From: Anaerolinea thermolimosa
Lineage (GTDB): Bacteria; Chloroflexota; Anaerolineae; Anaerolineales; Anaerolineaceae
Direction of reading: 5' to 3'
NCBI RefSeq assembly: GCF_001050195.2
Contig: NZ_DF967965.1
Coordinates: forward strand, 3,174,726-3,238,033
Length of the DNA stretch: 63,308 bases
Under the pieces are notes generated by a model. The model searched no databases. It worked only from the letters and a program-made list of their open reading frames with translations, and had not been told where the DNA came from. Of the stretch, positions 10,606-26,090 are shown one piece after another (the first letter of the stretch is position 1; each line of letters opens with the position of its first letter). The translations under genes and the position numbers were made by a program.

Positions 10606-10621
10606 CGTTGCACCCCTATCC

Positions 10622-12199
10622 TTACATCGCCAACAATGCGCTGAAATCCATCTCTACAGCCACCCCCACCCGGTACGCTCCCACACGTTCTGGCAGAGCA
10701 AAGCGCACCTGCCCGGCGGCATTTTTCTTATCCACGCTGAGGGCGCGCAGGAACACCTCCCGGTCAATATTCTCAGGGATGCGTGTGGGCAGGCCAAGCC
10801 CGCGCAGGCATGCCTCGATGCGCCCGGCCAGGCCAGCCTCTGCCACCCCAAGGTTTTCCGCCAGGTGTGCCTCCACCCGCAGGCCAATCGCCACCGCTTC
10901 GCCGTGGCGCAAGCGGTAACCCAAAGCCAGCTCCACCGCGTGTCCCACCGTATGGCCCAGGTTAAGCGCCGCCCGAATGTTCTTCTCATAGGGATCTGCC
11001 TGAATAAAGGCGATCTTCACCGCCATGGCGCGGCGCACCGTTTCATCCAGATCTGCGCACATCGCCTCCCAGCCCCCTTCGGCCCGGGCAAAAAGCACCG
11101 CGTCAGCCAGCAGACCATGCTTCACCACCTCAGCCATCCCGCTGCGCAACTCCGCCTCGGGCAGGGTAGAAAGGGTAGCCGGGTCCGAAAGCACCAGCGC
11201 CGGGGGATGAAAAGCCCCGATTAAATTTTTACCCTGCGGAAGGTCAGCGCCGGTTTTCCCCCCCAGGCTGGCATCGGCCATCGCCAGCAGGGTGGTGGGT
11301 AAAGCCACCCAGCGTACCCCCCGCAAGTACACTGCCGCGGCGAAACCGGCCAGGTCACCCACCACACCCCCTCCCAGCGCAAGCACCGTACTGCGCCGGT
11401 CGAGACGAGCGGCGAGAAAGGCCTCCCACAGGTGAGACACAGTCTCCAGCGTTTTATGCTCTTCCCCCGCCGGGATCACCACCCGTTGCACTGCATAACC
11501 GGCCCCCCTCAAAGCCGCTTCTACCCTCTCCGCGTAGAGCGGGGCCACCTGCGAATCGCTCACCAGCGCCAGCGGGCCTTCCAGACCACGTGCGCGCAGC
11601 ATCGCTCCCAGATCATCGAGGCCACCCTGCACCACGCGCACATCATACGCGGTCCCCATGCCGCTCACCCGCCAGGCACCAAACTTCAACTGCGCCTGAC
11701 GGGCGGCCTCTTCGGGGTTCAATGATGAGGTATCCAGGTACAGAGGAAAGGAATGATAATGCGCCGCCCGCACGGTCAGCAAAGCATCCAGACGCTCGCG
11801 CCATCCGGCATCCTCGCCCAGAAGAGGGCGCGTACCAGCTTCCTGCCCCAGGCGCTCGAACAGCACCCCGCGCTCGGCTCGCAGACAAAGCACCCGCCCG
11901 GCTGATTCGACCAGTGAGCGGCTGGCAGGATCGAGTAAAGCCCCTCCACCCAGAGAAACCACACCCCGCCCGCTTTGTACGGCGGCTTCCAGGGCGGTGC
12001 GCTCACGCTGTCTGAAGCCGCGCTCGCCCTCGCGGTCAAAAATGGCCGGGATGGGCATCCCCGCAGAGGCCTGAATCTGCTCATCCAGATCCACAAAAGG
12101 CAGATCGAGCAGTCCGGCCAGGCGCCGCCCCAGGGTCGACTTGCCCGACCCCGGCGGACCGTAAACAAAATACAGAGTTTCACCCTTGGAAGCAGTCAT
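10622..12199 (-). CDS. aroKB: Bifunctional shikimate kinase / 3-dehydroquinate synthase
   Basis: 525 aa, a fusion. The N-terminal ~175 residues are shikimate kinase: Walker A GPPGSGKSTLGRRL, the DLDEQI substrate motif, and GGGALLD. The C-terminal ~345 residues are 3-dehydroquinate synthase: LALGGGVVGDLAGFAAAVYL, the zinc-site EVVKHGLL, and NLGHTVGHAVEL. The two steps are not consecutive in the pathway (steps 5 and 2), so the fusion probably serves co-expression rather than channelling. It starts 4 nt after the aroC stop. Confidence 0.96.
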   Translation of the reverse strand: MTASKGETLYFVYGPPGSGKSTLGRRLAGLLDLPFVDLDEQIQASAGMPIPAIFDREGERGFRQRERTALEAAVQSGRGVVSLGGGALLDPASRSLVESAGRVLCLRAERGVLFERLGQEAGTRPLLGEDAGWRERLDALLTVRAAHYHSFPLYLDTSSLNPEEAARQAQLKFGAWRVSGMGTAYDVRVVQGGLDDLGAMLRARGLEGPLALVSDSQVAPLYAERVEAALRGAGYAVQRVVIPAGEEHKTLETVSHLWEAFLAARLDRRSTVLALGGGVVGDLAGFAAAVYLRGVRWVALPTTLLAMADASLGGKTGADLPQGKNLIGAFHPPALVLSDPATLSTLPEAELRSGMAEVVKHGLLADAVLFARAEGGWEAMCADLDETVRRAMAVKIAFIQADPYEKNIRAALNLGHTVGHAVELALGYRLRHGEAVAIGLRVEAHLAENLGVAEAGLAGRIEACLRGLGLPTRIPENIDREVFLRALSVDKKNAAGQVRFALPERVGAYRVGVAVEMDFSALLAM

Positions 12200-12203
12200 G
12201 GTT

Positions 12204-13382
12204 TCACTCAGGCCAGAAAATATGGGGTTGATTATCTACATGCAGATCATCCAGGCGTGCCCGGCGCAGAGCATCCAAACGGGGGCGCATTTCATCCAGA
12301 GAATCGCCGCCCAGTTTTTCAAGCAAGGCATCGGCCAGCACGAAGGCCATCATGGCCTCCAGAATCACCACCGCCCGCGGGACGGGGCAAAAATCCGAGC
12401 GTTCATAACGGGTTTCCGTTTCCTCGCCGGTGGACAGGTCAACGGTCGGCTGAGGCGTGAGGGTGGTAGCAATGGGTTTCATGGCCGCGCGCACCACCAG
12501 CGGCTGGCCGGTAGTGATGCCGCCTTCCAGTCCGCCGGAACGGTCGCTCGGACGCGTCAACCAGCCGCCTTCGGCCTCCAGCCGGATGGCATCGTGCACC
12601 TGCGTGCCGGGCAAACGTGCATTTTGAAAGGCAGGGCCGAACTCTACCCCCTTAATCGCCTGGATACTGAGGATCGCCGCTCCCAGGCGCGCTTCCAGGC
12701 GGCGATCCCACTGAGCGTAAGACCCCAGCCCCGGCGGAAGCCCCAGAGCCACCACCTCGATCACCCCGCCCAGCGTATCGCGCTCCTGCATCACCTGACG
12801 GATGGCTTCCTGCATCTGCCGGGCGGCATGTACATCCGGGCAGGAAACTTCGCTTTCCAGGGCACGCTCTATCCGGTCAGCGTAGGAAAGACCGGCCAGA
12901 TCCGCCTCTACCGGCCCGATAGACACCACATACCCTCCCACCCGAATGCCGAACTCGGCCAGCAGGGCGCGGCAGACCGCCCCCACCGCCACCCGTGCGG
13001 CGGTCTCACGTGCCGAAGCACGCTCGAGGGCGGGGCGCAAATCATGGAGCCCATATTTCAACGCACCGGCCAGGTCGGCATGTCCCGGGCGCGGGGTAGT
13101 GAAAGGGGCCACCGCCCGCCCTTTCCAGCGGGCATGGTCGCTGTTTTCAATATAAAGGACCAACGGCGCTCCGGTAGTCCGGCCTTCCATCACACCCCCC
13201 AGAATGCGGGCGGTATCTGTCTCCAGCTTCATACGCGGACCGGCGCCGTATCCATGCTGACGACGGGCCAGGTCGCGCCGGAGAAGCGCTTCATCCAGAG
13301 GCAGGCCTGCGGGCAGGCCGTCGAGAATGGCCAGCAGGGCAGGCCCGTGCGATTCACCAGCGGTTAGAAAACGTAAGGGCAT
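12204..13382 (-). CDS. aroC: Chorismate synthase
   Basis: 392 aa, full length. Conserved blocks are LTAGESHGPALLAILDGLPA at the N-terminus, the FMN-site RPGHADLAGALKYG, and DRSGGLEGGITTGQPLVVRA. It converts 5-enolpyruvylshikimate 3-phosphate to chorismate using reduced FMN. The flavin reductase at 1.5 kb is far away and should not be assumed to be its partner. It lies between aroE (15-nt gap) and aroKB (4-nt gap), all on the minus strand. Confidence 0.97.
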   Translation of the reverse strand: MPLRFLTAGESHGPALLAILDGLPAGLPLDEALLRRDLARRQHGYGAGPRMKLETDTARILGGVMEGRTTGAPLVLYIENSDHARWKGRAVAPFTTPRPGHADLAGALKYGLHDLRPALERASARETAARVAVGAVCRALLAEFGIRVGGYVVSIGPVEADLAGLSYADRIERALESEVSCPDVHAARQMQEAIRQVMQERDTLGGVIEVVALGLPPGLGSYAQWDRRLEARLGAAILSIQAIKGVEFGPAFQNARLPGTQVHDAIRLEAEGGWLTRPSDRSGGLEGGITTGQPLVVRAAMKPIATTLTPQPTVDLSTGEETETRYERSDFCPVPRAVVILEAMMAFVLADALLEKLGGDSLDEMRPRLDALRRARLDDLHVDNQPHIFWPE

Positions 13383-13397
13383 AAGCTCCTCTTTACC

Positions 13398-14276
13398 TCA
13401 TTCAGGGTTCTTTCGGTCGCGCTCAACCGCACGGAACATCGCCTCACGGGGAACCGGTAAACCGGTCCACTTTTCCAGCGCCAGCGCGGCCTGCTCCACG
13501 AGCATCCCCAGGCCAGTCACAGCCTCCAGTCCGGCGCGGCGCGCCTCGCGCACCAGGCGCGTCTCCGGGGGATTATATACCAGGTCATAAACACATGCCC
13601 CTGAGGGAAAGGCCAGCCCCTCCGGCCAGGGGCTCGTCTCAACCTGGGGGGTCATGCCGAGCGGAGTGGCATTGATGATCAACTGCGGGTGCGGAACCCC
13701 TCCCTCAGGGAGAGCGGCGAGTGAAAGCGGAATAAACTGTTCCGCTTTCAACCAGTATCCCAGTGAAAGTGCCAGCGCTTCGGCCTGCTCCAGGCGGCGT
13801 GCCGCAATCACCACCCGCCAGCCCTCACTTGCCAGTGCAAAAGCCACTGCCCGGGCCGAGCCCCCTGCTCCAAGCAACCAGGCACACCGCTCCCGTGCCT
13901 TATCTGCAAGGTGATCTCCCAGGCGGGCGTACAGGTCGGCTAAAAAACCGGGGGCATCGGTGTTTTCTCCCACCAGGCGCCCTTCTCTCATCCAGAGGGT
14001 GTTCACCGCACCGATGGCGCGCGCCGTCGGAGAAAGCTCGTCCAGCAGGGGTAGCACGGCCTGCTTATGTGGAATGGTGACGTTAAGCCCCTGCAGCTGG
14101 CCATTCCGCACCTGTTGAAGCAACGCCGCCAGAGCTGTGGAATCAGCCGGTGGAACCGGCATAAGGCGGTATTCTCCCTTCAGCCCCAGCGCGGCCAGAG
14201 CCGCCTGGTGCAGGACGGGCGAAAGGCTGTGGCCGAGCGGCCAGCCAGTCAGGGCAAAAACCAGAGTATCTGTCAT
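13398..14276 (-). CDS. aroE: Shikimate dehydrogenase (NADP+)
   Basis: 292 aa. The substrate site is GWPLGHSLSPVLHQAAL, the catalytic Lys is in NVTIPHKQAVLPL, the Asp of the catalytic pair is in NTDAPGFLADL, and the nucleotide loop is LLGAGGSARAVAFAL. Arg residues after the second strand of the Rossmann fold (IAARRLEQAE) favour NADP. It reduces 3-dehydroshikimate to shikimate. It is located 18 nt after aroA. Confidence 0.96.
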   Translation of the reverse strand: MTDTLVFALTGWPLGHSLSPVLHQAALAALGLKGEYRLMPVPPADSTALAALLQQVRNGQLQGLNVTIPHKQAVLPLLDELSPTARAIGAVNTLWMREGRLVGENTDAPGFLADLYARLGDHLADKARERCAWLLGAGGSARAVAFALASEGWRVVIAARRLEQAEALALSLGYWLKAEQFIPLSLAALPEGGVPHPQLIINATPLGMTPQVETSPWPEGLAFPSGACVYDLVYNPPETRLVREARRAGLEAVTGLGMLVEQAALALEKWTGLPVPREAMFRAVERDRKNPE

Positions 14277-14294
14277 GAGAAACAGGAAGGGTTC

Positions 14295-15620
14295 TTACTC
14301 ATACGCTTCGGTCATCTGCGCCCCCAGCGAACGCAGTACATCCGGAAACCCCGGGAAGGACTCGCGGGTAATTTCAGCCCCCAGCACCTTCACCGGCTCA
14401 CGCGAAGCCAGCCCCACCACCGCCAGCGACATCGCCAGGCGGTGGTCTCCGTGCGGGTTGACCACACCCCCCCGCACCCCGCCGCCCTGCAGAATAAAGC
14501 CATCGGGGGTTTCCTCAACCTGCGCACCCACCGCACGCAGTTCACTGCACAGTGCGCCAATTCGATCAGACTCTTTGTAGCGCAATTCCTGCGCGTCGCG
14601 CACCACACTGGGGCCTTCGGCAAAAACCGCGGCGGCGGCAAAGGCGGGGAATTCATCGATCATCCGCACCACCCATTCCCCCGCAATCTCAACCCCCCGC
14701 AACGGGCTGAAGCGCACCTTCAAATCACCCACCGGCTCGCCGAGGTATTCCCTCAGGTTGCTCACCTCAATGTCACCGCCCATCGCCCGGAAGGCATCCA
14801 GCAGACCGGTACGGGTGGGATTAAGCCCCACCCCGGGCAGGGTGAGCTCTGAGCCAGGTGTGATCAGCGCCGCCGCCATGAGGAACGCCGCGGCGGAAAA
14901 ATCACCCGGGAGCATCCCCCTCAGGGGGCACAGCGGGGTTTTCGGCGGGGTGAGGGTCACCCGGTAACCGGCCAATTCGGGGCTGGTTTCGACCTCAACC
15001 CCCATGCCGCGCAACATACGCTCGGTGTGGTCGCGCGAGAGCGCCGGTTCGTGGAGGGTGGTGGGTGCATCGGCAGCCAGTGCGGCCAGTAACAGACAGG
15101 TTTTCACCTGGGCACTGGCCACCGGCAGAGAATAGTCGAGTGCCGAAAGCCGCCGTGACGGCGGGCGTGAACCCAGGGTCAGGGGTGCCCCTCCGCCCTC
15201 CGCGGTGGTAATATCCACTCCCATCTGGCGCAGGGGTTCGGCAATGCGCTCCATCGGACGGCGGCGCAAACCTGCCGAGCCATCCAGCACCGCAGCAATC
15301 CCCGCCGCGGCCACTGCCCCGGTCAGCAGACGCATGGTGGTGGCTGAATTTCCGCAATCCAGCACGCTCTCTGGTGCACGCAGACCGTGCAGGCCGCGTC
15401 CGTACACCCGCAGGGTGTCATCTGAGAGTTCCCATGCCACCCCCAGTGCCTTCAGAGAACGCAGCATAGCCTCAGTCACCCCCGAAACGAGAAAATGCTC
15501 CACACAACTTTCACCTTCCGCCAGCGCCGCAAAGAGCGCCACCCGATGAGAAAGAGACTTGTCTCCCGGAGATTCCACGCACCCCCGGAGCGGACCGCCA
15601 GGGAAAATGGTGAGGTTCAT
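14295..15620 (-). CDS. aroA: 3-phosphoshikimate 1-carboxyvinyltransferase (EPSP synthase)
   Basis: 441 aa, typical two-domain length. It begins with a GDKSLSHRVALFAALAEGES block carrying the PEP-binding Lys. LDCGNSATTMRLLTG is the shikimate-3-phosphate loop, and the C-terminal GDHRLAMSLAVVGL contains the conserved His-Arg. The Gly and Ala of the GNSATTMRL segment are unchanged, so it looks like an ordinary class I enzyme. Its start overlaps the tyrA stop by 4 nt. Confidence 0.97.
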   Translation of the reverse strand: MNLTIFPGGPLRGCVESPGDKSLSHRVALFAALAEGESCVEHFLVSGVTEAMLRSLKALGVAWELSDDTLRVYGRGLHGLRAPESVLDCGNSATTMRLLTGAVAAAGIAAVLDGSAGLRRRPMERIAEPLRQMGVDITTAEGGGAPLTLGSRPPSRRLSALDYSLPVASAQVKTCLLLAALAADAPTTLHEPALSRDHTERMLRGMGVEVETSPELAGYRVTLTPPKTPLCPLRGMLPGDFSAAAFLMAAALITPGSELTLPGVGLNPTRTGLLDAFRAMGGDIEVSNLREYLGEPVGDLKVRFSPLRGVEIAGEWVVRMIDEFPAFAAAAVFAEGPSVVRDAQELRYKESDRIGALCSELRAVGAQVEETPDGFILQGGGVRGGVVNPHGDHRLAMSLAVVGLASREPVKVLGAEITRESFPGFPDVLRSLGAQMTEAYE

Positions 15621-16501
15621 CGTGTTTCTCCCGGTGAGATCGAAAGGAAATTTTCCCGCCGCAGTGCGCCTTCTTCCAGCAAACCTTGCAACGCGGCATA
15701 GTCTTCCGCCTCGAGCAACTGCTCAAACAGGTCAAGGCGGGCATGTACACGGCGCAGGGCACAGAGCACATTCTTACGATTGGTCATCAAAATATCCATC
15801 ATTAATTCAGCAGGCTGAGAGGCCAGCCGCGTGGTGCTGCGAAACCCCGGCCCGGCCAGAGGTGCGGCTTCTGGAGGGGTGCAGGCCGCCAGTGCAGAGG
15901 CCAACAGGTAGGGCAGGTGGCTGGTAGCGGCCACCCACCGATCGTGCACCCACTCATCCAACCAGAGCGGTCTGGCGCCAATGGCCCCGGCCAGCGCCTC
16001 AGCCGCCGCCCGGGCGCGCAGGGTGGTTCGCGGTAGCGGCACAAAGGCAAATGGCGCCCCCCGGTACAGGTTCGCCTCGGCCTCTGCCAGCGAAGAGCGT
16101 TCCTTACCGCACATCGGGTGCCCACCGAGGGGATCAAAGCGTCCCGGCAGGCGTGCCATGCGCTGAAGGATGTCCTGCTTGGTCGAACCCAGGTCGATCA
16201 CCACCGGTGCGCCGGGGTGCAGGCCGGGTAAAGCCTCGATCAATTGAAGAATCACCCGCACCGGAGCCGCCAGAATCACCAAATCGGCCTGAGGGAGAGC
16301 GCCCTCAGGTGTTGCTGACAGGTCATCGGCAAGCCGCAGGCGGGCGGCCAGCTCAAGGGTGGGTGGGTGGGGGTCAATTCCAATCAGCCGAGATACCTTT
16401 CCGCGCAATGCCAGTGCCAGTGATCCACCCATGAGCCCCAGCCCCAGAATGGCCACACAGGCGCGCTCCAGAAAAAAGCCAGGCTCCTCATCACCACTCA
16501 T
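15617..16501 (-). CDS. tyrA: Prephenate (or arogenate) dehydrogenase
   Basis: 294 aa. The Rossmann loop is [17 protein letters not shown] at about 18-34, followed by [12 protein letters not shown] and the catalytic-site [15 protein letters not shown]. There is no C-terminal ACT domain, so direct tyrosine feedback through such a domain is not expected. It produces the tyrosine precursor from prephenate. Whether prephenate or arogenate is the substrate cannot be read from the sequence. It overlaps both neighbours (aroF and aroA) by 4 nt, implying tight translational coupling. Confidence 0.93.
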
Positions 16502-17556
16502 GGGGCAGCTCCCTGCAGAACCGGCTGGGTATGCTGAGACCTGGCCACATCTCGCCCGATCGCCCGGGCAATGGCGCGCACCTGGCGCACCATTTCGGCG
16601 AAGCGCTCTGGCTTAAGGCTCTGCCCGCCATCCGAAAGTGCCTGGTCGGGGTGCGTATGCACCTCTACCATCAACCCATCTGCCCCGGCGGCCACCGCCG
16701 CGCGGGCAATGGCCGTAACATACTCCCAGTTGCCGGTGCTGTGAGAGGGATCAAGCACCACCGGCAGATGGCTGAGGGCCTTAAGCACCGGCACGGCATT
16801 GATATCCGTAGTGTTGCGCGTTGAGGTTTCGAAAGTGCGAATACCGCGTTCACACAGGATAACCCGCCGATTTCCGTGTGAAAGCACGTATTCAGCCGCC
16901 ATGAGCAATTCTTCCACCGTGGCGCTCATCCCGCGCTTGACCACCACCGGGCGCATGCTCTCCCCGGCGGCATGGAGCAGGGCATAATTTTGCATGTTCC
17001 GTGCCCCGATCTGCAATACATCGGCATAGCGAGCCACCAGCGGCACCAGCTCAGGCGACATCACCTCGGTCACAATGGGCAAACCGGTCACCTCACGCGC
17101 CTCCGCAAGGATTTCCAGCCCTTTTTCTCCCAGCCCCTGGAAGGAATAGGGCGAAGTACGTGGTTTGTAAGCCCCGCCGCGCAGAGCATGGGCACCGGCT
17201 TCTTTCACCGCCTGGGCGATCTCCAGGGTTTGCTCGCGGCTTTCTACCGAGCATGGTCCGGCAATGATCACCACACCTTCACCACCAATCTCCACCCCAT
17301 CCAGGGGGAACACCGTGTTGTGAGGGCTGAATTCACGAGAGGCAATCTTGTACGGGCGAGAAATGGGGACGATCCGGTCTACCCCGGGCAGGATCAGAAA
17401 CTGGTCACGATTAATGGGGCGACCATCTCCAATCGCCCCGATAATGGTGCGCTCTTCTCCGCGTGAGAGGTGGGCCCTCAGACCGTTGGCCTCCACACGC
17501 TCCACCACCGCACTGATTTCTTCCTGGGTCGCGTCGGCTCGCATGATAATCATCAT
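16498..17556 (-). CDS. aroF: 3-deoxy-7-phosphoheptulonate synthase, type I-beta
   Basis: 352 aa. Residues 1-70 form a ferredoxin-like regulatory domain ([19 protein letters not shown]), the hallmark of Thermotoga-type enzymes that are inhibited by Tyr or Phe. The catalytic barrel follows: [40 protein letters not shown] and [12 protein letters not shown]. It condenses PEP and erythrose 4-phosphate, the committed step of the pathway. It begins 46 nt after aroH. ATG 17556 is preceded by GAGGAGAGACAGAA. Confidence 0.96.
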
Positions 17557-17602
17557 TTCTGTCTCTCCTCTGGCAATAAGAGTAAAAAGGGTAAGTTAAC
17601 TT

Positions 17603-17983
17603 TCAGGCATCTGACTTGAGCGGGGTCCAATCCGGGCGCAGGATGGCCGCCTCGCCCAGATAAACATGCCGGATTTCAGATTGAGGTAAATCGGTGTTCC
17701 AGTGCACCAGCACACGAATACAACGTGCCAGCGAGCCGGGCACAGGGATCTCCCGGGCACACATCAGGGGAACCTCAGTCCAGCCCAGCTGGCGTGCACC
17801 CAGCGCCGGGTGAACAGCCGTCAGGTCATCGGTGACGGTAAAGAAGACACTGGCAATGTCCGCCGGTAACAGGCCGGGATTGGCTTCCATCATGGCGGAG
17901 AGCAGTTCACGGGTGGCCGAAAGAATGGCTTCTGCCTCGTTTTCCCGGGCAACTGTCGCACCGCGAACACCTCGTATACTCAT
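17603..17983 (-). CDS. aroH: Chorismate mutase, AroH class
   Basis: 126 aa from ATG 17983, which follows TGAGGAGGAAGAAACC. The frame is open further upstream, but that part overlaps the attenuator. The sequence follows the trimeric Bacillus-type enzyme: [20 protein letters not shown] with catalytic Arg7, a [20 protein letters not shown] block with Glu and Arg, and [16 protein letters not shown] with the Tyr. It converts chorismate to prephenate. As first gene of the aro/tyr operon it lies directly behind the Tyr/Phe attenuator. It commits carbon to Tyr/Phe and away from Trp, fitting control by those two amino acids. Confidence 0.95.
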
Positions 17984-18011
17984 GGTTTCTTCCTCCTCAG
18001 GCTTTTTAAGC

Positions 18012-18041
18012 AAAAACTGCGGAGCCGTTGGCTCCGCAGTT
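18012..18041 (-). terminator. Attenuator terminator in the aroH operon leader
   Basis: On the minus strand a perfect 12-bp stem AACTGCGGAGCC / GGCTCCGCAGTT with a 3-nt loop runs straight into TTTTT. It sits between the leader ORF stop and the aroH ribosome binding site, so it would end transcription before aroH unless the stem is prevented from forming. Confidence 0.9.
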
Positions 18042-18105
18042 GCGTTTGAGATAGGGATTCTCGCCCGCTTAAGCTCCGCCGCCGGCAACCGGGGTGCGTT
18101 TGCCG
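18037..18105 (-). promoter_or_regulatory. Antiterminator and pause-hairpin segments of the attenuator
   Basis: Three segments precede the terminator's 3' arm on the minus strand. Segment 1 (CGGCAA, 18105-18100) pairs with TTGCCG (18088-18083). Overlapping segment 2 (CGGTTGC, 18091-18085) can instead pair with GCAACTG (18043-18037), with one G-U pair, taking over the first five bases of the terminator 5' arm. This is the 1:2 / 2:3 / 3:4 arrangement of classical amino-acid attenuators. Ribosomes stalled on the Tyr/Phe codons would cover segment 1 and favour 2:3. Confidence 0.7.
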
Positions 18106-18152
18106 TAAAAATAAAAGTAATAGTAGCGGGGAGAAAGCGGTCGGGTCTGCAT
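18069..18152 (-). CDS. Tyr/Phe leader peptide of the aroH-aroQ operon
   Basis: A 27-codon ORF, ATG 18152 to TAA 18069, encodes [20 protein letters not shown] followed by PVAGGGA. Residues 10-16 are seven consecutive aromatic codons, five Tyr and two Phe; there is no Trp. It begins 11 nt after the -10 box, so the mRNA has only about 5 nt before the ATG and no Shine-Dalgarno site. The stop codon lies 28 nt before the terminator stem, and the ribosome at the stop would mask the antiterminator segment. Role inferred: ribosome stalling at low Tyr/Phe-tRNA allows read-through into aroH. Confidence 0.85.
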
Positions 18153-18163
18153 GATTGTGTTCA

Positions 18164-18192
18164 AGTTTAGCGCGACTGACCGGGAAAGTCAA
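18164..18192 (-). promoter_or_regulatory. Promoter of the aroH operon
   Basis: TTGACT (18192-18187), 17-bp spacer, TAAACT (18169-18164) on the minus strand: a good sigma-70-type promoter. Transcription should start near 18157, just before the leader peptide ATG. Confidence 0.85.
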
Positions 18193-18225
18193 GAGGGTAT
18201 TTTGCATTGACAGAGGGTATTTTGC
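18192..18225 (-). repeat. Two 14-bp direct repeats abutting the aroH operon -35 box
   Basis: AGAGGGTATTTTGC (plus strand) occurs at 18192-18205 and again at 18212-18225, identical and 20 bp apart, about two helical turns. The first copy touches the -35 hexamer. This is the geometry of a protein binding site for an activator or repressor; the protein is unknown. Confidence 0.6.
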
Positions 18226-18241
18226 CGGTTTTTTAAATCTC

Positions 18242-19081
18242 TCATCCGCCCGAATGCAACGCCTGTTTCAATGCACGGATAAAATCAGCCGCGGCCTGTG
18301 CCGGGTGCCCGTCCCTGCCAGCCGCCTCAATCAGCGCCGAGCCGACGATCACCCCGTCGGCCAGTTGCCCCACCAGGCGCGCCTGTTCTGGGGTCGAAAT
18401 ACCAAACCCCACCGCCAGGGGAGTGCAGGCCACCTGACGTACCCGGGCGATAAAATCGGCCAGCCCGGGGGGCAATTCACTGCGGGCGCCGGTCACCCCG
18501 GTCAGCGAGACCAGGTATAAAAAGCCCCCGGTGCGCCCGGCCACCAGCGCAACCCGTTCTGGCGGTGACGTGGGAGAAACCAGATACACCAGCGCCAGCC
18601 CGTGGTCACGGCAGGCCGCCTCCAGTGTTTCCGCTTCTTCAGGAGGTAGATCCGGGACGATCAACCCATCAGCCCCGCTCCTGGCGGCATCGGCTACGTA
18701 GCGTTCCACACCATAAGCCAGGATTGGGTTGACGTACCCCATTAACAGGAACGGCTGACGCACCCCCCGACGGCGTAATTCAGCCGTAAGCTCCAGGCAG
18801 GCACGTACACTCATACCTTTCTCAAGGGCCATGTGGGTGGAATGCTGTATGGTGGGGCCATCCGCCAGTGGATCTGAAAATGGCACCCCCAGTTCGATCA
18901 GGTCTGCTCCGGCTTCAGCCATGGCTTCAATCACTTCCAGTGAAGTGGGGGCATCCGGGTAGCCAAGCGTGAAGTAAGGCATCAAAGCCGCATATCCGGC
19001 CTCCCTGGCCTGCTGGAAGGCCCGCGAAATCCGCTGTATACCGGAGCCGGTGAGTACCGTAGAAGCTTCAGAGATTGTCAC
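18242..19081 (-). CDS. trpA: Tryptophan synthase alpha subunit
   Basis: 279 aa. Catalytic Glu is in [20 protein letters not shown] and the catalytic Asp is in [28 protein letters not shown] and [12 protein letters not shown] form the phosphate site. It cleaves indole-3-glycerol phosphate to indole for the beta subunit. It is the last gene of the trp operon and overlaps trpB by 4 nt. No intrinsic terminator is visible before the aroH promoter 50 bp downstream, so read-through into the aro operon is possible. Confidence 0.97.
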
Positions 19082-20295
19082 ATCTCCTCCTTTCCAAGAG
19101 CCTTCAGAATGGTCTCCAGGTCTTTGTCACCCCGCCCGGAAAGATTCACCAGCAAAATATCATCGGCTGAAAGTTGCGGCGCCAGGCGGATGGCCTCAGC
19201 CACCGCGTGAGACGACTCAAGCGCCGCCAGAATGCCCTCACTGCGCGCCAGGTACTGAAAGGCCCTCAGCGCACTGCGGTCGTCAGCCGTGGTGTATTCG
19301 GCCCGCCCCTGATCGCGCAAAAAGGCATGTTCTGGCCCCACCGCGGCATAATCCAGCCCGGCAGAAATAGAATGGGTCTCGGCCACCTGGCCGTCTTCGT
19401 CCTGAAGAACCCAGGTGTAGGTACCGTGCAGCACGCCGGGACGCCCGCGTTTGGGATCGCTGAAGCGCGAGGCATGGCGCCCGCTTTCCAGGCCTTCGCC
19501 GCCGGCTTCTACGCCAATCAGGCGCACACCGGGGTCATCGCGGAAGGCATGGAACAGGCCAATGGCATTGGACCCGCCTCCCACGCAGGCAATGCAGGCA
19601 TCGGGCAGGCGGCCAGCCTGTTCGAGAATTTGTGCACGGGCTTCCAGACCAATCACCGCCTGAAAATCGCGCACCATGGTAGGGTACGGGTGCGGCCCCA
19701 GGGCAGAACCCAGCAGGTAATGGGTATGGCTCACATTGGTTACCCAGTCGCGAATGGCTTCATTGACCGCATCTTTGAGCGTGCGGCTTCCACTCTCCAC
19801 CGGGCGCACCTCGGCCCCAAGCAGGTGCATCCGCTGTACATTGGGCTGCTGACGCGCCATATCCACCGACCCCATATAGACCACACACTCCAGGCCGAGC
19901 AGCGCTGCCACCGTGGCGGTGGCCACCCCGTGCTGGCCGGCGCCAGTTTCAGCTACCACCCGGCGCTTCCCCATGCGCTTCGCCAGCAAAGCCTGCCCCA
20001 GAGCATTGTTGATTTTATGTGCCCCCGTGTGCGCCAGGTCTTCCCGTTTCAGATAAATTCGCGCCCCACCCAGCTCGTCACTGAGGTGGGCGGCAAAGGT
20101 CAGCGGGGTCGGGCGCCCCACATATTCTCGCAGCAGGCGGGCAAACTCAGCCTGAAAGGACGCATCAGCCTGCGCTTCAAGATAAGCCTGCTCCAGCTCG
20201 GCGACCGCCGGCATGAGCACTTCGGGGATAAACTGCCCCCCGTAAGGGCCAAACTTGGTCGAAAGTTGGGTAAGAGATTGGGTTGAGGTAATCAT
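19078..20295 (-). CDS. trpB: Tryptophan synthase beta subunit
   Basis: 405 aa, class TrpB1 by length and by its pairing with trpA. PLP-binding Lys is in [15 protein letters not shown], the phosphate loop is [15 protein letters not shown], and [19 protein letters not shown] is conserved. It joins indole to serine-derived aminoacrylate. Start and stop overlap trpF and trpA by 4 nt each, consistent with translational coupling and equimolar subunits. Confidence 0.98.
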
Positions 20296-20945
20296 GGAAG
20301 ATCTCCTTTTCCTTCGGCGGCTGCCATTCTGGCGGCCTGAACAAATTGTTTCATCCGCAGCACATCTTTATGCGGGGGAGAACTTTCTACCCCCGAAGCC
20401 ACATCCACCCCCCAGGGGCGCACCTGGCGCACAGCCCCGGCGACATTCTCAGGCCGCAACCCGCCAGCCAGTAAAACAGGCGCCCGTCTGGCAAGTTCGC
20501 TGGCCAGCTCCCAGCTGGCCGGGGTGCCTGTACCACCGTACTCTCCGGGGCGATAAGCGTCCAGCAGCCAGGCGGGAGCCTCACCCCGCGGCGGGTAAAG
20601 CCTTGAAAGCGCCTCCAGGTCTGATGAATTGGCCGGGCGCAGAGCTTTGAAAGCCCGCTTTCCAAGCGCGTTCACAACCTCGGGTGGCTCATCTCCCGAA
20701 AGCTGGGCCAGATCCAACCCGCAGGCATCCAGAATGGCCTGAATCTCGTCCAGGGGGGCGTTTACAAACACCCCTACACAGGTCACCCCCGTGCCGCGCA
20801 AACCGGCCACAATCTCTGCGCAAACCCCCGGCGACACAAAGCGCGGACTGGGCGGATAAAAGTTAAAGCCCAGCAGATCAGCCCCGGCCCCCACAGCTGC
20901 CAGGGCGTCTTCCAGCGAGGTAATCCCGCAAATTTTGACCTTCAT
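20292..20945 (-). CDS. trpF: Phosphoribosylanthranilate isomerase
   Basis: 217 aa. It begins [20 protein letters not shown], with the catalytic Cys in KICG, and continues with [14 protein letters not shown]. The catalytic Asp lies in [14 protein letters not shown], and [15 protein letters not shown] plus [11 protein letters not shown] form the phosphate site. Monofunctional, not fused to trpC as in enterobacteria. 4-nt overlaps on both sides. Confidence 0.97.
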
Positions 20946-21730
20946 CCCACCAGCTCCCTCACTTTAGCCGCGGTATCCTGTGCCGCCACCAGCGCCTCGC
21001 CCACCAGCAGTGCATCTACCCCGGCCTCGGCGAGCACGTCTACGTCGGCTCGCGTGTGAATGCCGCTCTCGGCCACCACCACCACTCCCGGCGGAATATG
21101 CGGACGCAGGCGCAGAGTGGTCTCAAGGCGCACCTCAAAAGTACGCAAATCACGGTTATTAATCCCGATGATCTGTGCCCCGGCCTTCATGGCTACCTCA
21201 AGCTCAGGAAGGTTATGCACCTCTACCAGGGCGGCCATACCCAGCTCCTCTGCCAGTCTGGAAAAATCGCCGAGCTGTGCGAACTCCAGGCAGGCCACGA
21301 TGAGCAAGATCGCACTGGCACCTGCCGCACGCGCCTCATAAATCTGACTTTCCTCCAGAATAAAATCCTTCCGCAACACGGGGCGTCGGGGTTGCAGTGC
21401 CGCCACCTGACGAAGGTGCTCCAGGCTCCCCCCGAAAAAACGTTCATCGGTAAGCACACTGAAGGCTGAAGCCCCGTTATCACGGTAAGCCTGTGCCAGG
21501 CGGAGGGGGTCGAAGTCAGCCCCGGCCAGAAGCCCGCGCGAGGGAGAGGCGCGCTTGATCTCAGCGATGAGACGTGGCCGGGCATGGAGCGGGCGGCGGA
21601 TGGCGGCCTTAAAATCCAGGGAGGGCAGGGCGTTCCCGGCCGCCGCTCGCACGTCTGCCAGCGAGGTTAACGCTTTTCGCGCGGCCAATTCGGCGCGTTT
21701 GTGGGCAAGAATCTCGTCCAATCGGCTCAT
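20942..21730 (-). CDS. trpC: Indole-3-glycerol phosphate synthase
   Basis: 262 aa. It starts with the helical DEILAHKRAELAARKA extension. The barrel has IAEIKRASPSRGLL with the catalytic Lys, VLRKDFILEESQIYEARAAG, IIGINNRDLRTFEV and VAESGIHTRADVD. It closes the indole ring from CdRP. Its ATG overlaps the trpD stop by 4 nt. Confidence 0.97.
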   Translation of the reverse strand: MSRLDEILAHKRAELAARKALTSLADVRAAAGNALPSLDFKAAIRRPLHARPRLIAEIKRASPSRGLLAGADFDPLRLAQAYRDNGASAFSVLTDERFFGGSLEHLRQVAALQPRRPVLRKDFILEESQIYEARAAGASAILLIVACLEFAQLGDFSRLAEELGMAALVEVHNLPELEVAMKAGAQIIGINNRDLRTFEVRLETTLRLRPHIPPGVVVVAESGIHTRADVDVLAEAGVDALLVGEALVAAQDTAAKVRELVG

Positions 21731-22749
21731 TGCACAAAGCTCCCGGAGAAGGCAACCAGTTCTTCCAGTTTGGCCAGCGCTGCCCCGCTGGAAAGGGAGT
21801 GTTCGGCTTCGGCCAGCGCCATACGGAAATCACCACTATCAGCCGCCAGCGCCGCCGCACTGTTGAGCAAAACCACATCGCGGCGCGGAGAGTCATCCTC
21901 CCCGGCAAGCAGGTCACGCAGCATGGCCGCGTTCCGGGCAGGTTCTCCGCCGCGCAACAATTCAGGGTCGGCCCGGCGCAGCCCCAGTTCTACAGCATCG
22001 AGGGTGAAGGTATCCACCCGCCCATCATGCAGATGACTGATGCGGTTCGGCCCACCCGTTGAGAGTTCATCCAAACCGCCGTGCCCGTGCACCACAAAGG
22101 CCGCCTGCCCGCCCAGTTCACCGAGCACCTCGGCAATCGGATCGGTGAGGGTGGCATCGTACACCCCGATCAATTGATGCGTGGCCCCTGCCGGGTTGGT
22201 CAGCGGTCCGAGCAGGTTGAAAATGGTGCGCTGCCCCAGTTCACGGCGTGGGCCAATGGCATGTTTCATGGCAGGATGAAAGCGGGGAGCAAACATAAAG
22301 CCAATCCCTACCTGCTCAATACAGGCGGCTACCTGCTCAGGGGTGAGCTCAATATTGACTCCCAGAGCGGCCAGCACATCGGCACTTCCACACTGCGAAG
22401 AAGCCGCCCGGTTGCCATGTTTGGCCACCCGGCGACCCGCCCCGGCGATGACAAACGCGGCGGCAGTGGAAATGTTAAAGGTATGGGCTCCATCTCCCCC
22501 TGTGCCAGCCGTATCCAGCAGAGGGGTGCCGTCGGGACGGTAGGGCACCCGGCTGGCCTGGGCGCGCATGGCACGCGCCGAACCCACAATCTCATCCACC
22601 GTCTCGCCCTTCATGCGCAGGGCCACCAGATACCCGCCGATTTGTGCGGGGGTAGCCTGCCCGGTCATGATGATGGTCATGGCCTCTTCGGCTTCCGCAG
22701 CAGTCAGGTTTTCGTGACGAATGATTTTATTGAGGAATGGTTTCAACAT
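21727..22749 (-). CDS. trpD: Anthranilate phosphoribosyltransferase
   Basis: 340 aa from ATG 22749, chosen because AAAGGAGAATTGCG precedes it; the open frame begins nine codons earlier. The motifs LDTAGTGGDGAHTFNIST (PRPP loop), VAKHGNRAASSQCGSADVL and GPLTNPAGA are intact. It transfers phosphoribose from PRPP to anthranilate. Not fused to trpG. Confidence 0.97.
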   Translation of the reverse strand: MLKPFLNKIIRHENLTAAEAEEAMTIIMTGQATPAQIGGYLVALRMKGETVDEIVGSARAMRAQASRVPYRPDGTPLLDTAGTGGDGAHTFNISTAAAFVIAGAGRRVAKHGNRAASSQCGSADVLAALGVNIELTPEQVAACIEQVGIGFMFAPRFHPAMKHAIGPRRELGQRTIFNLLGPLTNPAGATHQLIGVYDATLTDPIAEVLGELGGQAAFVVHGHGGLDELSTGGPNRISHLHDGRVDTFTLDAVELGLRRADPELLRGGEPARNAAMLRDLLAGEDDSPRRDVVLLNSAAALAADSGDFRMALAEAEHSLSSGAALAKLEELVAFSGSFVQ

Positions 22750-22776
22750 CGCAATTCTCCTTTTCTGGCAAACCAC

Positions 22777-23349
22777 TTACCCGAGTGGCTTCAGTTGTAA
22801 GAAATTCGAAAGGATCATCCGCCCGGCCTCCGTGAGGATCGACTCCGGGTGGAACTGCACCCCAAAAATGGGATATTCCCGATGGCGCAGGCCCATCAAT
22901 TCACCGGTACGGGTAAAAGCCGTCGCCACCAGGGGTTCTGGCAGGGGCTCGGCGACCACCAGCGAATGGTAACGGGTAGCCTCAAAGGGACTGGGCAACC
23001 CCGCAAAGAGATCCTCTCCATAATGGTAAATGGGAGACGTCTTGCCGTGCATCAGGTGCGGGGCGCGCACCACCTGCCCACCAAAGACCGCACCAATGCA
23101 CTGATGCCCCAGGCATACCCCCAGCAATGGTCGGCGCACTCCCAGACGGCGAATCACAGCATTGGAAATCCCCGCATCCTCTGGTTCGCCCGGCCCCGGT
23201 GAAATAACCACACGGTCGGGGTTAAGCTCCTCCAGTTCATCGACGGTAATGGCATCATTGCGGAAAACACGCACATCTTCTCCCAGCTCACCCAGCAGCT
23301 GGGCCAGGTTATAGGTAAACGAGTCGTAATTATCGATCAGAACCAGCAT
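22777..23349 (-). CDS. trpG: Anthranilate synthase, glutamine amidotransferase subunit
   Basis: 190 aa class I glutaminase. Nucleophile Cys is in [17 protein letters not shown], His-x-Glu in [14 protein letters not shown], and the N-terminus is [20 protein letters not shown]. It supplies ammonia to TrpE. It might also serve 4-amino-4-deoxychorismate synthase, as in Bacillus, but no second component-I gene is seen here. A gap of 27 nt separates it from trpD. Confidence 0.96.
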
Positions 23350-23373
23350 ATCGCGCCTCCTTTTCTTCCTCCG

Positions 23374-24858
23374 TCAGGCCAGCGATGATTTTTCAGCCAT
23401 TTCCACCGCCACCGCCAGCGCACGCGCTTTATTAAGCGATTCCTGATATTCCAGTGCAGGGTCTGAATCGGCCACCACCCCTCCTCCGGCCTGTACAGAA
23501 ACGGTTTTCCCGCGCATTACCATGGTGCGAATGGCAATACAGGTATCCATAGAACCATCGGCGGCGAAGTAACCCACCGCCCCGGCGTAAGGGCCCCGCG
23601 GGGTCGACTCAAGCTCATCGATGATCTGCATGGCGCGAATCTTGGGGGCCCCGGTAACCGTGCCCGCCGGGAAGGTGGCGCGCATCAGGTCAAACGCATC
23701 TAACTCCGGGCGTAAACGCCCTTCTACATGCGAGACGATGTGCATCACATGTGAATACCGCTCCACCTGCATCAGTTCCGAGACTCGCACCGTGCCATAT
23801 TCACACACCCTCCCCAGGTCATTTCGCGCCAGATCCACCAGCATCACATGCTCCGCCCGCTCTTTGGGATCACCCAGCAGGTCTTGCTCCAGAGCAAGGT
23901 CTTCAGCGGGGGTTTTCCCCCGCGGGCGGGTACCGGCAATGGGGCGAATGGCCGCCGTACGACCCTCCAGGCGCACATGCATCTCTGGCGATGCACCGAT
24001 CAGCCGCAAAGGTTCACCTCCTGCCAGGCTGGCAAAATCGAAAAAGAACATATAGGGCGATGGGTTAAGCCGCCGTAAAGCACGGTAGATATCGAAAGGT
24101 GCGGCTTCGGTTTCACGGCTGAGTCGCTGTGACGGCACCACCTGAAAGATATCCCCCGCGGCAATATATTCTTTGGCTTTCAAAACATTGGCCATATACC
24201 GCTCACGAGGCACATTGGAGCGCATCTCGGTAGAAACAGCCGCTACACCCCCCGCAGGTACTGCACGCGGCGGCAACGGCGAGGCCAGGCGGGCTTCCAG
24301 TTCATCCAGGCGAGCCTCAGCCGCGGCGCGGGCCACAGATTCTGGCCCATGGGGGGCGGGGTTGGCAATCAGCAGGAGCCGCCCGAAGGCATGGTCAAAG
24401 GCCACCAGGGTATCGGCCAGCAGGAAGATTGCATCGGGTAAATCGGGGTGCGGGCGCAGGGACACGCTCGGTTCAAAGAAACGCATCATTTCATAACCAA
24501 GGTAACCCACCAGACCGCCCGTGAAGCGCGGCAGTCCGTGCAATGGTTCACGGCGCAGAGGTTCAAGCTCGGCCTTTAAGGCGCCTAACGGGTCAGAAAC
24601 AATGCGCTTCTCCACCTCATCGGCAGAATGAATCTCCAGGGTGTTCCCGCGTACCACACAGGCGCGGGCCAGCCCCGCCCCGATAAAGGAATAGCGCGCC
24701 ACGCGTTCACCGCCGGTCACCGATTCCAGTAAAAACGAAGGCCCCGTTCCGGCCAGCTTAAGATAGGTGGAAACCGGCGTTTCTAAATCTGCAGGCAATT
24801 CACGCACCAGAGGGGCGCTTGCCTGGATCGTGGTTGGTGAAGAAATTGGTTGGTTCAT
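23374..24858 (-). CDS. trpE: Anthranilate synthase component I
   Basis: 494 aa from ATG 24858 after GATGAGGTGAAAAGG. The frame stays open through the leader terminator, but that part is regulatory RNA. The tryptophan feedback site LLES is present (FLLESVTGG). Catalytic blocks are NPSPYMFFFDF, IRPIAGTRPRGKT, EHVMLVDLARNDLGRV and GTVTGAPKIRAMQI. It converts chorismate to anthranilate. First gene of trpEGDCFBA, preceded by a T-box leader, so control is expected both at the enzyme and at transcription. Confidence 0.97.
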   Translation of the reverse strand: MNQPISSPTTIQASAPLVRELPADLETPVSTYLKLAGTGPSFLLESVTGGERVARYSFIGAGLARACVVRGNTLEIHSADEVEKRIVSDPLGALKAELEPLRREPLHGLPRFTGGLVGYLGYEMMRFFEPSVSLRPHPDLPDAIFLLADTLVAFDHAFGRLLLIANPAPHGPESVARAAAEARLDELEARLASPLPPRAVPAGGVAAVSTEMRSNVPRERYMANVLKAKEYIAAGDIFQVVPSQRLSRETEAAPFDIYRALRRLNPSPYMFFFDFASLAGGEPLRLIGASPEMHVRLEGRTAAIRPIAGTRPRGKTPAEDLALEQDLLGDPKERAEHVMLVDLARNDLGRVCEYGTVRVSELMQVERYSHVMHIVSHVEGRLRPELDAFDLMRATFPAGTVTGAPKIRAMQIIDELESTPRGPYAGAVGYFAADGSMDTCIAIRTMVMRGKTVSVQAGGGVVADSDPALEYQESLNKARALAVAVEMAEKSSLA

Positions 24859-24889
24859 CCTTTTCACCTCATCATCGTTCAGATAAAAC

Positions 24890-24922
24890 AAAAACCTCTC
24901 CCGTCGTATGGGACGAGAGAGG
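24890..24922 (-). terminator. T-box regulated terminator before trpE
   Basis: The minus strand carries CCTCTC-T-CGTC, a short loop, then GACG-G-GAGAGG, followed by TTTTT, ending about 30 nt before the trpE start. It begins right after the T-box sequence, so it is the terminator half of the switch. Confidence 0.9.
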
Positions 24923-25219
24923 TTTCCCGTGGTGCCACCCAATTTAGGCCGCTGTTCTTATAAAAAAACCCGTCGTGACGACGACGGGTAAGAAAAGCCA
25001 GCCTCACTCTGGGGTACGCCGGACAGGTCCGGTTATACCCTTTGCCCGGATAACGGCGGCAACTCCGGCGCGGGCTACTCGGCCAGGCCTTTCACCCTGC
25101 AGCTCTGAGAACCATTCCGCGCCACCGTGCGGGCAGCCCTTTCACCGTCTGACTGCTCTCTGTGCCGCCTGTGCGGCGCGTACTCTTTCTCTTCACAGCT
25201 TTTCTTCGTTCAATTGTTG
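24895..25219 (-). ncRNA. Tryptophan-type T-box leader of the trp operon
   Basis: The T-box sequence GGGTGGCACCACGG is at 24940-24927 (minus strand). Within it, TGGC would pair with the NCCA end of the tRNA; the C demands discriminator G, as in tRNA-Trp. Upstream, the stem I region carries AGAGAG (in CACAGAGAGCAG), GGTGAAAG, and a candidate specifier TGG at 25114-25112 in GGAATGGTTCTC. T-box RNAs bind uncharged tRNA and switch the antiterminator on. Both the specifier and the discriminator point to Trp, fitting the downstream genes. Stem boundaries were not folded computationally. Confidence 0.88.
24962..24989 (-). terminator. Extra terminator-like hairpin inside the T-box leader
   Basis: ACCCGTCG / CGACGGGT (8 bp, 6-nt loop) is followed by a T-run on the minus strand, just before the T-box sequence. 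It occupies the stem III position but has the form of an intrinsic terminator. Confidence 0.6.
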
Positions 25220-25225
25220 CTGCTG

Positions 25226-25254
25226 TTTATAGCAAGGTTAACTGCATTTGTCAA
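25226..25254 (-). promoter_or_regulatory. Promoter of the trp operon
   Basis: TTGACA (25254-25249), 17-bp spacer, TATAAA (25231-25226) on the minus strand, close to the sigma-70 consensus. The predicted transcript begins near 25219, at the 5' edge of the T-box leader. Confidence 0.9.
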
Positions 25255-25276
25255 GGATGATTTTCTCCCATTTTTT

Positions 25277-26089
25277 TCAACTGCTGGCACTGCTGTAATT
25301 GCGCAGTCCGCGCTTCCAGGCCAGTCGCACCAACCCCAGCAAGAGGAAAGGCAGCAACAATGCCCAGCCCAGGTAAACGGAGGGCATTTTCTTCAACACA
25401 AACATCGGCGGAAAATTGGTGACCACAAAAATCGGCAGAATGAAAACCCCGATCTGCTGGATCCAGCGATTGTAAATATCCATCGGCATGTTGTTGAAGT
25501 CCCAAAACGAGTCGGTGATCTCGGCAATGGCGCTGGTGTTCATCAACCAGAAAGAGAGAATCTGCGGCAACAGGAAAAGGCAATAGCTGACCACCGAACT
25601 GATCCCCAGAAAACCCAAATAGCCCCCCACCGTCACCAGGTTTACCGGGATGCTCAACCGTGCCCAGGCGATACAGACCATCACCGCCCCCGCCAGAGCA
25701 TCCACACTGAAAATGGTCAGGTCAGCCTGGCGCAGGGTAGCCATGAACTGCAGGGATACCGGCTTGGTGAGGATCAGATCAAGATCGCCGTCTTTGATCT
25801 TCCCGCGCAGGCCAAAGTTGTTGATCATGTACAACCCGGCATAAACCGCCGTGAGGAACACGAAGGTGCCGATAAAAAGCAAAATTTCATCCGGTGAGAG
25901 GCCATGAATGCTCACCCCCGAACGGTACACCACCACCACATACGAAAGCTTCACCAGCAAATACCCCGATTCCATTGCCAGATTGCCGATGAAATTGAAC
26001 CGGTATTCCATCTGCGCCATCAGGCTATTCTTGAGGAAAAGCCGGTAAATGAGCCAGTGTTTTTTAATCTCACGCCAGAGTTCGTTCAT
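25277..26089 (-). CDS. ABC-2 type permease (PF06182-like), subunit 2
   Basis: 270 aa from ATG 26089, preceded by GGGGGGATAG; the open frame starts seven codons earlier. It has six hydrophobic segments and the pattern NSLMAQMEYRFNFIGNLAME near the N-terminus, typical of the paired ABC-2 proteins with the ATPase upstream. LRGKIKDGDLDLILTKPVSLQFM is the cytoplasmic coupling-helix region of this family. With the next two genes it forms an exporter of unknown substrate. It follows the other permease stop by 1 nt. Confidence 0.88.
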   Translation of the reverse strand: MNELWREIKKHWLIYRLFLKNSLMAQMEYRFNFIGNLAMESGYLLVKLSYVVVVYRSGVSIHGLSPDEILLFIGTFVFLTAVYAGLYMINNFGLRGKIKDGDLDLILTKPVSLQFMATLRQADLTIFSVDALAGAVMVCIAWARLSIPVNLVTVGGYLGFLGISSVVSYCLFLLPQILSFWLMNTSAIAEITDSFWDFNNMPMDIYNRWIQQIGVFILPIFVVTNFPPMFVLKKMPSVYLGWALLLPFLLLGLVRLAWKRGLRNYSSASS

Positions 26090-26090
26090 C

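Follow-up and report, generated by a model that had tools for sequence, protein, structure and literature searches.

A putative tyrosine/phenylalanine transcription attenuator before the aroH operon of Anaerolinea thermolimosa and its relatives

The pheA and pheST attenuators of Gammaproteobacteria combine a leader ORF rich in cognate codons, mutually exclusive 2:3 and 3:4 stems and a terminator with a U tract. In Actinobacteria, attenuators of trp, ilv, leuS and trpS were predicted by comparative genomics, and the portion of that survey drawn on here reports no conserved RNA regulatory structures for Phe or Tyr operons (PMC1262725). The Corynebacterium glutamicum ilvBNC leader peptide is described, in the passages cited, as lacking a ribosome-binding site, with transcription starting one nucleotide before the start codon (PMC11857589), and the cited part of a study on Sinorhizobium meliloti places the start of the trpL leader RNA at the ATG of the leader ORF (PMC7298713). 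A survey of 2010 stated, in the section cited, that to its authors' knowledge leader-peptide attenuation had not been shown outside Proteobacteria and Actinobacteria before its own Firmicutes case (PMC2965389). For Chloroflexota, no aromatic attenuator is described in the literature covered, which was mostly open-access, in agreement with an earlier note on this DNA that held such a device to be undescribed in this type of bacterium; the 2010 Lopatovskaya survey may contain Chloroflexi predictions.

Here we analysed a leader located directly 5' of aroH in a window of Anaerolinea thermolimosa DNA, the window being the whole stretch of 63,308 nucleotides under study. At 17950-18220 none of the Rfam leader families reached its gathering score (Phe_leader was unlisted and Leu_leader scored 16 bits against 50), and the T-box model gave no match up to E 10. 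Matches obtained in this region at relaxed E values (CcsR1, eeev_FSE, Leu_leader and two others) were far below gathering and were taken as chance.

The aro operon and its leader ORF

The genes following the leader on the minus strand were assigned by family models in the order aroH-aroF-tyrA-aroA-aroE-aroC. The aroH gene (17603..17983) encodes a monofunctional chorismate mutase (TIGR01796, 139 bits against a cut-off of 82), and aroF (16498..17556) a DAHP synthase above the cut-offs of both TIGR01361 and NF006421. For tyrA (15617..16501), prephenate/arogenate dehydrogenase was the best family, with scores below the equivalog cut-offs. The remaining genes encode EPSP synthase (aroA, 14295..15620, TIGR01356), shikimate dehydrogenase (aroE, 13398..14276, TIGR00507) and chorismate synthase (aroC, 12204..13382, TIGR00033). 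The three activities that the earlier note had placed under the control of the leader, i.e. chorismate mutase, DAHP synthase and prephenate dehydrogenase, were thus recovered together with aroA, aroE and aroC, and according to the family models the operon makes the amino acids that the leader would sense.

On the 5' side of the leader lie trpD, trpC, trpF, trpB and trpA, the last ending at 18242. The only T-box leader of the window (24906-25205, minus strand, Rfam RF00230, 100.7 bits) lies 5' of these trp genes and its specifier was read from the alignment as UGG (Trp). Two ORFs sit between the T-box and trpD. The trp and aro genes are adjacent with different RNA switches, one of them predicted here, so that two RNA logics would share the aromatic pathway at a single locus.

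The leader ORF (18069..18152, minus strand) starts with an ATG at 18152, comprises 27 codons and ends with a TAA stop codon at 18071-18069; it is the 27-residue aromatic ORF described by the earlier note. Codons 10-16 (18105..18125, minus strand) read YYYFYFY, so that the short ORF carries seven consecutive codons for the putative regulating amino acids. Short aromatic ORFs were then searched in the 300 nt 5' of aroH, using 49 of 55 distinct upstream regions; six regions had been excluded beforehand (three from Ktedonobacter, one from another member of the Chloroflexi, one from a cyanobacterium and one from Pseudogracilibacillus). A short ORF with at least five aromatic residues in nine occurred in 38 of the 49 regions and one with at least seven in 27, compared with 1/49 and 0/49 in the reverse complements and 19/490 and 0/490 in dinucleotide shuffles; shuffle controls, here and below, leave relatedness among the leaders in place. 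The aromatic codons were frame-specific, with a mean of 5.9 out of 7 in frame vs 1.8 and 1.5 in the other two frames, and the in-frame count was the highest in all 33 leaders compared. Among the leaders of the relatives, Y, F and W come in freely varying numbers and arrangements.

The leader ORF has no Shine-Dalgarno motif in the window, and a similar motif was detected before the leader ORF in only 1 of 33 leaders vs 31 of 33 before aroH, where the window carries AGGAGG (17992..17997, minus strand). A sequence match to a sigma-70-type promoter (TTGACT - 17 nt - TAAACT, 18164..18192, minus strand) has its -10 box 11 nt ahead of the leader ATG, from which a 5' UTR of some 5 nt would follow. In a raw count, promoter-like sites scoring at least 10/13 were found in 32 of 33 leaders, the -10 box ending 8-20 nt before the ATG in 26 of the 32, although as a class such sites did not exceed chance in 10500-26500 (5 found vs 4.1 expected). 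These data suggest that the leader ORF is probably translated from a leaderless or near-leaderless RNA. Transcripts that read through from the trp genes would have no such start for the leader and would run into a terminator already in place.

Alternative structures and the predicted switch

A conserved intrinsic terminator (segments 3:4, 18012..18041, minus strand) lies between the leader ORF and the first gene. It consists of a perfect 12-bp stem, AACTGCGGAGCC-AAC-GGCTCCGCAGTT, with a 3-nt loop at 18041-18015, followed by TTT; this is the 12-bp terminator of the earlier note, and it appears in the minimum free energy (MFE) fold. Among the 21 terminator-like sites found in 10500-26500 (16.6 expected from shuffles), it ranks first and has the most G-C pairs (8). 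The leader stem, pairing segments 1 and 2 as an anti-antiterminator (18062..18143, minus strand), is predicted by the MFE fold, with an outer helix formed by 18143-18126 and 18082-18062. Its inner hairpin, CGGCA/TGCCG (18105-18101 with 18087-18083, minus strand), corresponds to the pause hairpin that the note had drawn at 18105-18083 and is supported by both the MFE fold and covariation. The fold of the whole leader returned -60.4 kcal/mol (z -3.59), and 1 of 200 shuffles was equally good.

Covariation was assessed on two alignments. The smaller, A1, contains 33 of 39 candidate leaders and omits a Ktedonobacter locus with no real leader (L028), a locus where the scan picked the wrong start and a YYYY leader lies downstream (L063) and four of longer or different architecture (L017, L023, L025 and L064); the larger, A2, contains 83 leaders, 78 of them distinct, with 81 loci supplied. 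In the 78 distinct leaders the inner hairpin and the terminator showed 96.2% standard pairs and 147 cells changed on both sides, compared with 39.9 in shuffles.

Segment 2 (18059..18086, minus strand), where the ORF ends, is the conserved element GCCGGCGGCGGAGCTTAAGCGGGCGAGA; it spans the stop codon and can pair with segment 3 (18024..18051, minus strand), which overlaps the terminator in its 5' arm, its loop and the first part of its 3' arm. The resulting antiterminator, 18086-18059 with 18051-18024 in the window, is a long interrupted hairpin whose consensus at the ORF 3' end reads GCCGUUGG, three nucleotides, CGCU. On A2 this pairing gave 86.6% standard pairs, and sliding the partner lowered the value to 20-47%; 8 of 12 pairs were changed on both sides vs 4.0 in shuffles (0/500). 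Against this, a control slid by -3, with 20% paired, equalled the antiterminator at 22 cells changed on both sides, and pair 96-143 was unpaired in 36 of 77 sequences. On A1, two of the five antiterminator measures were not above shuffles (pairs changed on both sides, 143/500; pair types, 279/500).

Further evidence was provided by exchanging terminator partners among leaders. The ORF halves paired with their own terminators at -23.99 kcal/mol vs -20.96 kcal/mol (sd 0.29) with permuted ones, a value reached in 0 of 20,000 permutations, and the outcome was the same for 29 leaders below 65% identity. An independent set of 20 leaders, each sharing less than 80% identity with any sequence of the model and with the others, returned -23.98 vs -20.85 kcal/mol (0/20,000). 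When the ORF half was shuffled, only 18 of the 33 leaders had at most 10 of 200 equally good shuffles, and for the conserved antiterminator of the window itself 56 of 200 were equally good, which is not significant alone. The support for the pairing is thus comparative.

Two antiterminator pairings are possible in the window. The one proposed by the earlier note, CGGTTGC:GCAACTG (18091-18085 with 18043-18037), exists and reaches -12.6 kcal/mol with its flanks, but the conserved antiterminator is the pairing of 18086-18059 with 18051-18024. When the nascent RNA was folded past the loop, as far as the fifth base of the 3' arm, the conserved pairing came out in 7 of 7 leaders, that of the window included, and the alternative was rejected as the conserved antiterminator.

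The conserved RNA element does not keep a fixed register with the ORF, being read in frame 0 in 24 of 33 leaders, in frame 2 in seven and in frame 1 in one, and lying outside the ORF in one. The peptides end accordingly, e.g. with AVGGA in frame 0 and with PPLV or ALKR in frame 2. Retention of the element across different reading frames indicates selection on the RNA pairing and the aromatic codons and not on the peptide tail. In one leader (L020, 2836-2984) the ORF stops early and the RNA element, GGCGGAGCTTAAGCGGGC, is retained beyond the reading frame. As frame shifts preserve the RNA, control codons and RNA pairing are separable, which makes these leaders a good system for studying how attenuators arise and change specificity.

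The effect of ribosome position was computed on RNA that extended by four bases into the 3' arm of the terminator. Six or more expected pairs were taken as formation of the antiterminator, and 33 of 33 leaders reached this level when the ribosome was stalled on the first, on the middle or on the last codon of the aromatic run. Folding without a ribosome left fewer than six expected antiterminator pairs in 27 of 33, since segment 2 is then held in the leader stem; a ribosome placed at the stop codon masks segment 2, so that by construction no antiterminator forms. By computation and comparison, antiterminator and terminator would exclude each other, the position of the ribosome deciding between them. 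The earlier note had proposed to compare the energies of the two states: the antiterminator does form in the nascent RNA, whereas the complete terminator is favoured in the window (-38.4 vs -25.5 kcal/mol for the antiterminator state). Once the hairpin is complete, the terminator prevails at equilibrium, and it does so in 33, 32 and 31 of 33 leaders even with a ribosome stalled on the aromatic codons; hence the switch must be kinetic, with timing deciding the outcome. In classical attenuators the complete terminator is likewise the favoured state and timing decides.

What the analysis shows is the ORF together with predicted structures that are conserved and covary; on this basis we hold with high confidence that the device is a classical ribosome-mediated transcription attenuator sensing charged tRNA-Tyr and tRNA-Phe. 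The steps that we infer concern the start site, coupling, stalling, the efficiency of termination and the response to Tyr and Phe. Transcription would start a few nucleotides 5' of the leader ATG, and a ribosome would load on the near-leaderless RNA. When Tyr and Phe are ample, the ribosome would cross the seven aromatic codons to the stop and cover segment 2, the 12-bp terminator would form and RNA polymerase would halt before aroH. A shortage of Tyr or Phe would stall the ribosome in the aromatic run, where it would cover the 5' strands of the leader stem; the free segment 2 (18086-18059) would pair with the emerging segment 3 (18051-18024) and block the terminator, and aroH-aroF-tyrA-aroA-aroE-aroC would be transcribed. 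In a leader that is not translated, the leader stem would sequester segment 2 and the terminator would form. The aromatic genes would thus very probably be switched on only when Tyr or Phe is short. The Tyr/Phe attenuation put forward in the earlier note is supported by the retention of the leader, the covariation of its stems and the antiterminator that all 33 leaders fold behind a stalled ribosome; in the relatives, where the note had proposed to look for retention and covariation, the Tyr/Phe-rich ORF and the terminator are kept and the stems covary.

Other readings of the locus were weighed against this one. Arrest of the nascent peptide, as in TnaC or ErmL, would have the aromatic peptide stall in the ribosomal tunnel on a ligand and so alter termination; a short conserved ORF before a terminator would suit it, tryptophanase operons are known to use arrest peptides, and genes of the tryptophanase/tyrosine phenol-lyase subfamily are among those with a related leader in front. 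Arrest peptides are known to require specific residues, however, while here the C-terminus is read in different frames and the aromatic residues are free in order and number, so that we consider this reading very unlikely. Still less probable is control of translation, by reinitiation or by masking of the aroH ribosome-binding site, either in place of attenuation or in addition to it. In the MFE fold of the window the aroH Shine-Dalgarno (17997-17992) is indeed paired with 18055-18053 and 18051-18049, part of which the antiterminator would use, but such a pairing occurs in only 2 of 31 leaders, a T tract belongs to the terminator, the leader start lies anywhere from 145 to 266 nt from the gene and DAHP synthase can replace aroH behind the leader. 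An extra translational layer is possible in the window and would not be general.

The lowest probability was given to the stem being the terminator of the upstream trp operon with an incidental aromatic ORF, or a terminator answering another signal. The end of trpA lies just 5', with no other terminator-like site detected between it and the leader, yet retention of the aromatic ORF goes far beyond chance, the interval from trpA to the ORF holds a promoter-like site, and the antiterminator linking ORF and terminator covaries.

Distribution and similar leaders before other genes

A leader, recognised as an aromatic ORF with a terminator or as a match to R1, a covariance model built from the 33 leaders, precedes aroH or DAHP synthase in 31 of the 35 aroH-bearing genomes of the family. 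The other four are G034, with no leader within 450 nt before aroH, G112 and G113, where R1 gave nothing up to E 1, and G135, counted without the region before its DAHP synthase gene. When DAHP synthase stands ahead of aroH, the leader is found before DAHP synthase (L210-L216 and L224). One contig (C143 of G122) carries two attenuators, L210 and L224, at a distance of about 1.4 kb, and a DAHP synthase gene stands behind each of them. The genome of the window has a single R1 copy.

Within the order, R1 matched 206 of 400 sampled genomes at E<=0.1. At E<=0.01 it matched 49 of 396 genomes of the class and 29 of 400 of the phylum, 27 belonging to the order in each case. Matches outside the order were weak (E at least 5e-5), with the exception of G773 (1.9e-12). 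The leader of this genome from another order (L110) encodes a peptide identical to that of L007. As judged from these sequences, the same predicted switch is widespread across the bacterial order. Outside it, an aromatic short ORF was present at 24 of 73 aroH loci (73 of the 109 aroH genomes found) and 19 of the 24 had a terminator-like stem, these being raw counts; such ORFs may or may not share common descent with the device of the order.

Further R1 matches before other genes were searched in 17 chosen genomes. Three preceded genes for beta-eliminating lyases, namely L218 (E 5.7e-8, from position 1501), L221 (5.0e-7, from 1322) and, weakly, L230 (0.06, from 1501). For the L218 product, the broad tryptophanase subfamily model was the only one passed (589 bits against a cut-off of 285); of the equivalog models, tyrosine phenol-lyase scored 475 (cut-off 720.7), above tryptophanase at 424 (cut-off 750), and the best solved structures were tyrosine phenol-lyases. 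Among close lyase homologues in the family, leaving aside one at a contig edge (L259), 11 of 23 had an aromatic leader, 8 of the 11 with a terminator by scan, compared with 2 of 23 reverse complements and 7 of 230 shuffles. With Tyr-rich lyase leaders, a Tyr shortage would induce the lyase, which is odd for a degrading enzyme. Weak aromatic matches at two of six tryptophanase-type genes of about 40% identity (L261 and L263) were rejected as chance ORFs.

Other matches lay before genes of aromatic and aspartate metabolism or transport. L220 (E 2.9e-7, from position 1501, minus strand) carries the leader FYFFSYFYFW before a bifunctional chorismate mutase-DAHP synthase. A gene for a TrpX-like ABC transporter substrate-binding protein follows each of two weak matches from 1501, L228 (E 0.005) and L229 (0.02); the L228 leader reads FFFFGYYFYH and its TrpX-like product scored 355 bits against a cut-off of 390. 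R1 also matched before aspartokinase (L122, L225 and L227, E 7e-6 to 9e-5). Including L266-L295, a Thr-rich (Thr/Met) short ORF was found at 18 of 30 aspartokinase loci, one later rejected, compared with 0 of 30 reverse complements and 3 of 300 shuffles. A terminator-like stem accompanied 15 of the 18, and 13 of these 15 carry CGGAGC, as does the terminator of the window. The rejected candidate, L285, precedes aspartokinase in the genome of the window and has a non-ATG start and no terminator found by the search.

The similar leaders at aspartokinase, lyase and TrpX-like genes in some relatives suggest a wider network. More tentatively, and at rather less than even chances, a single Chloroflexota scaffold might have been re-coded by swapping control codons, with Tyr/Phe at aroH, DAHP synthase, chorismate mutase-DAHP synthase and TrpX-like genes, Tyr at the lyase and Thr/Met at aspartokinase. 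The lyase, then induced by Tyr shortage, might run in the synthetic direction. The leader peptides of the scaffold would start without a Shine-Dalgarno at the RNA 5' end, so that only transcripts from its own promoter would be inducible and trp read-through would always be terminated.

Comparison with known attenuators

The leader shares with the C. glutamicum ilvBNC system, as described in the passages cited, the lack of a ribosome-binding site and a terminator/antiterminator switch; the codons of ilvBNC are those of branched-chain amino acids and its host belongs to the Actinobacteria, and the likeness is one of features (PMC11857589). Like S. meliloti trpL, in the account cited, the leader RNA would start at or near the leader ATG, but trpL belongs to a Trp operon, has 14 residues and releases an RNA that also acts in trans (PMC7298713). 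With the actinobacterial trp, ilv, leuS and trpS attenuators it has in common prediction by comparative analysis and alternative hairpins, and to these it would add Tyr, an amino acid that the part of the survey considered here ties to T-boxes (PMC1262725).

Leader-peptide attenuation is a textbook RNA switch, and a predicted Tyr/Phe device spread across an order of the Chloroflexota, with similar ORFs elsewhere in the phylum, widens its range. The closest resemblance is to pheA and pheST (Rfam Phe_leader), which likewise have an ORF rich in cognate codons, exclusive stems and a terminator before aromatic amino acid genes. Unlike them, the leader studied here mixes Tyr and Phe codons, precedes genes of the common pathway together with the Tyr branch, lacks a Shine-Dalgarno motif and scores below gathering with every Rfam leader family. 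The device would work like pheA-type attenuation and shows every computable defining feature of classical attenuation; what sets it apart is its Tyr/Phe specificity, the phylum in which it is found and its apparent re-use with other control codons.
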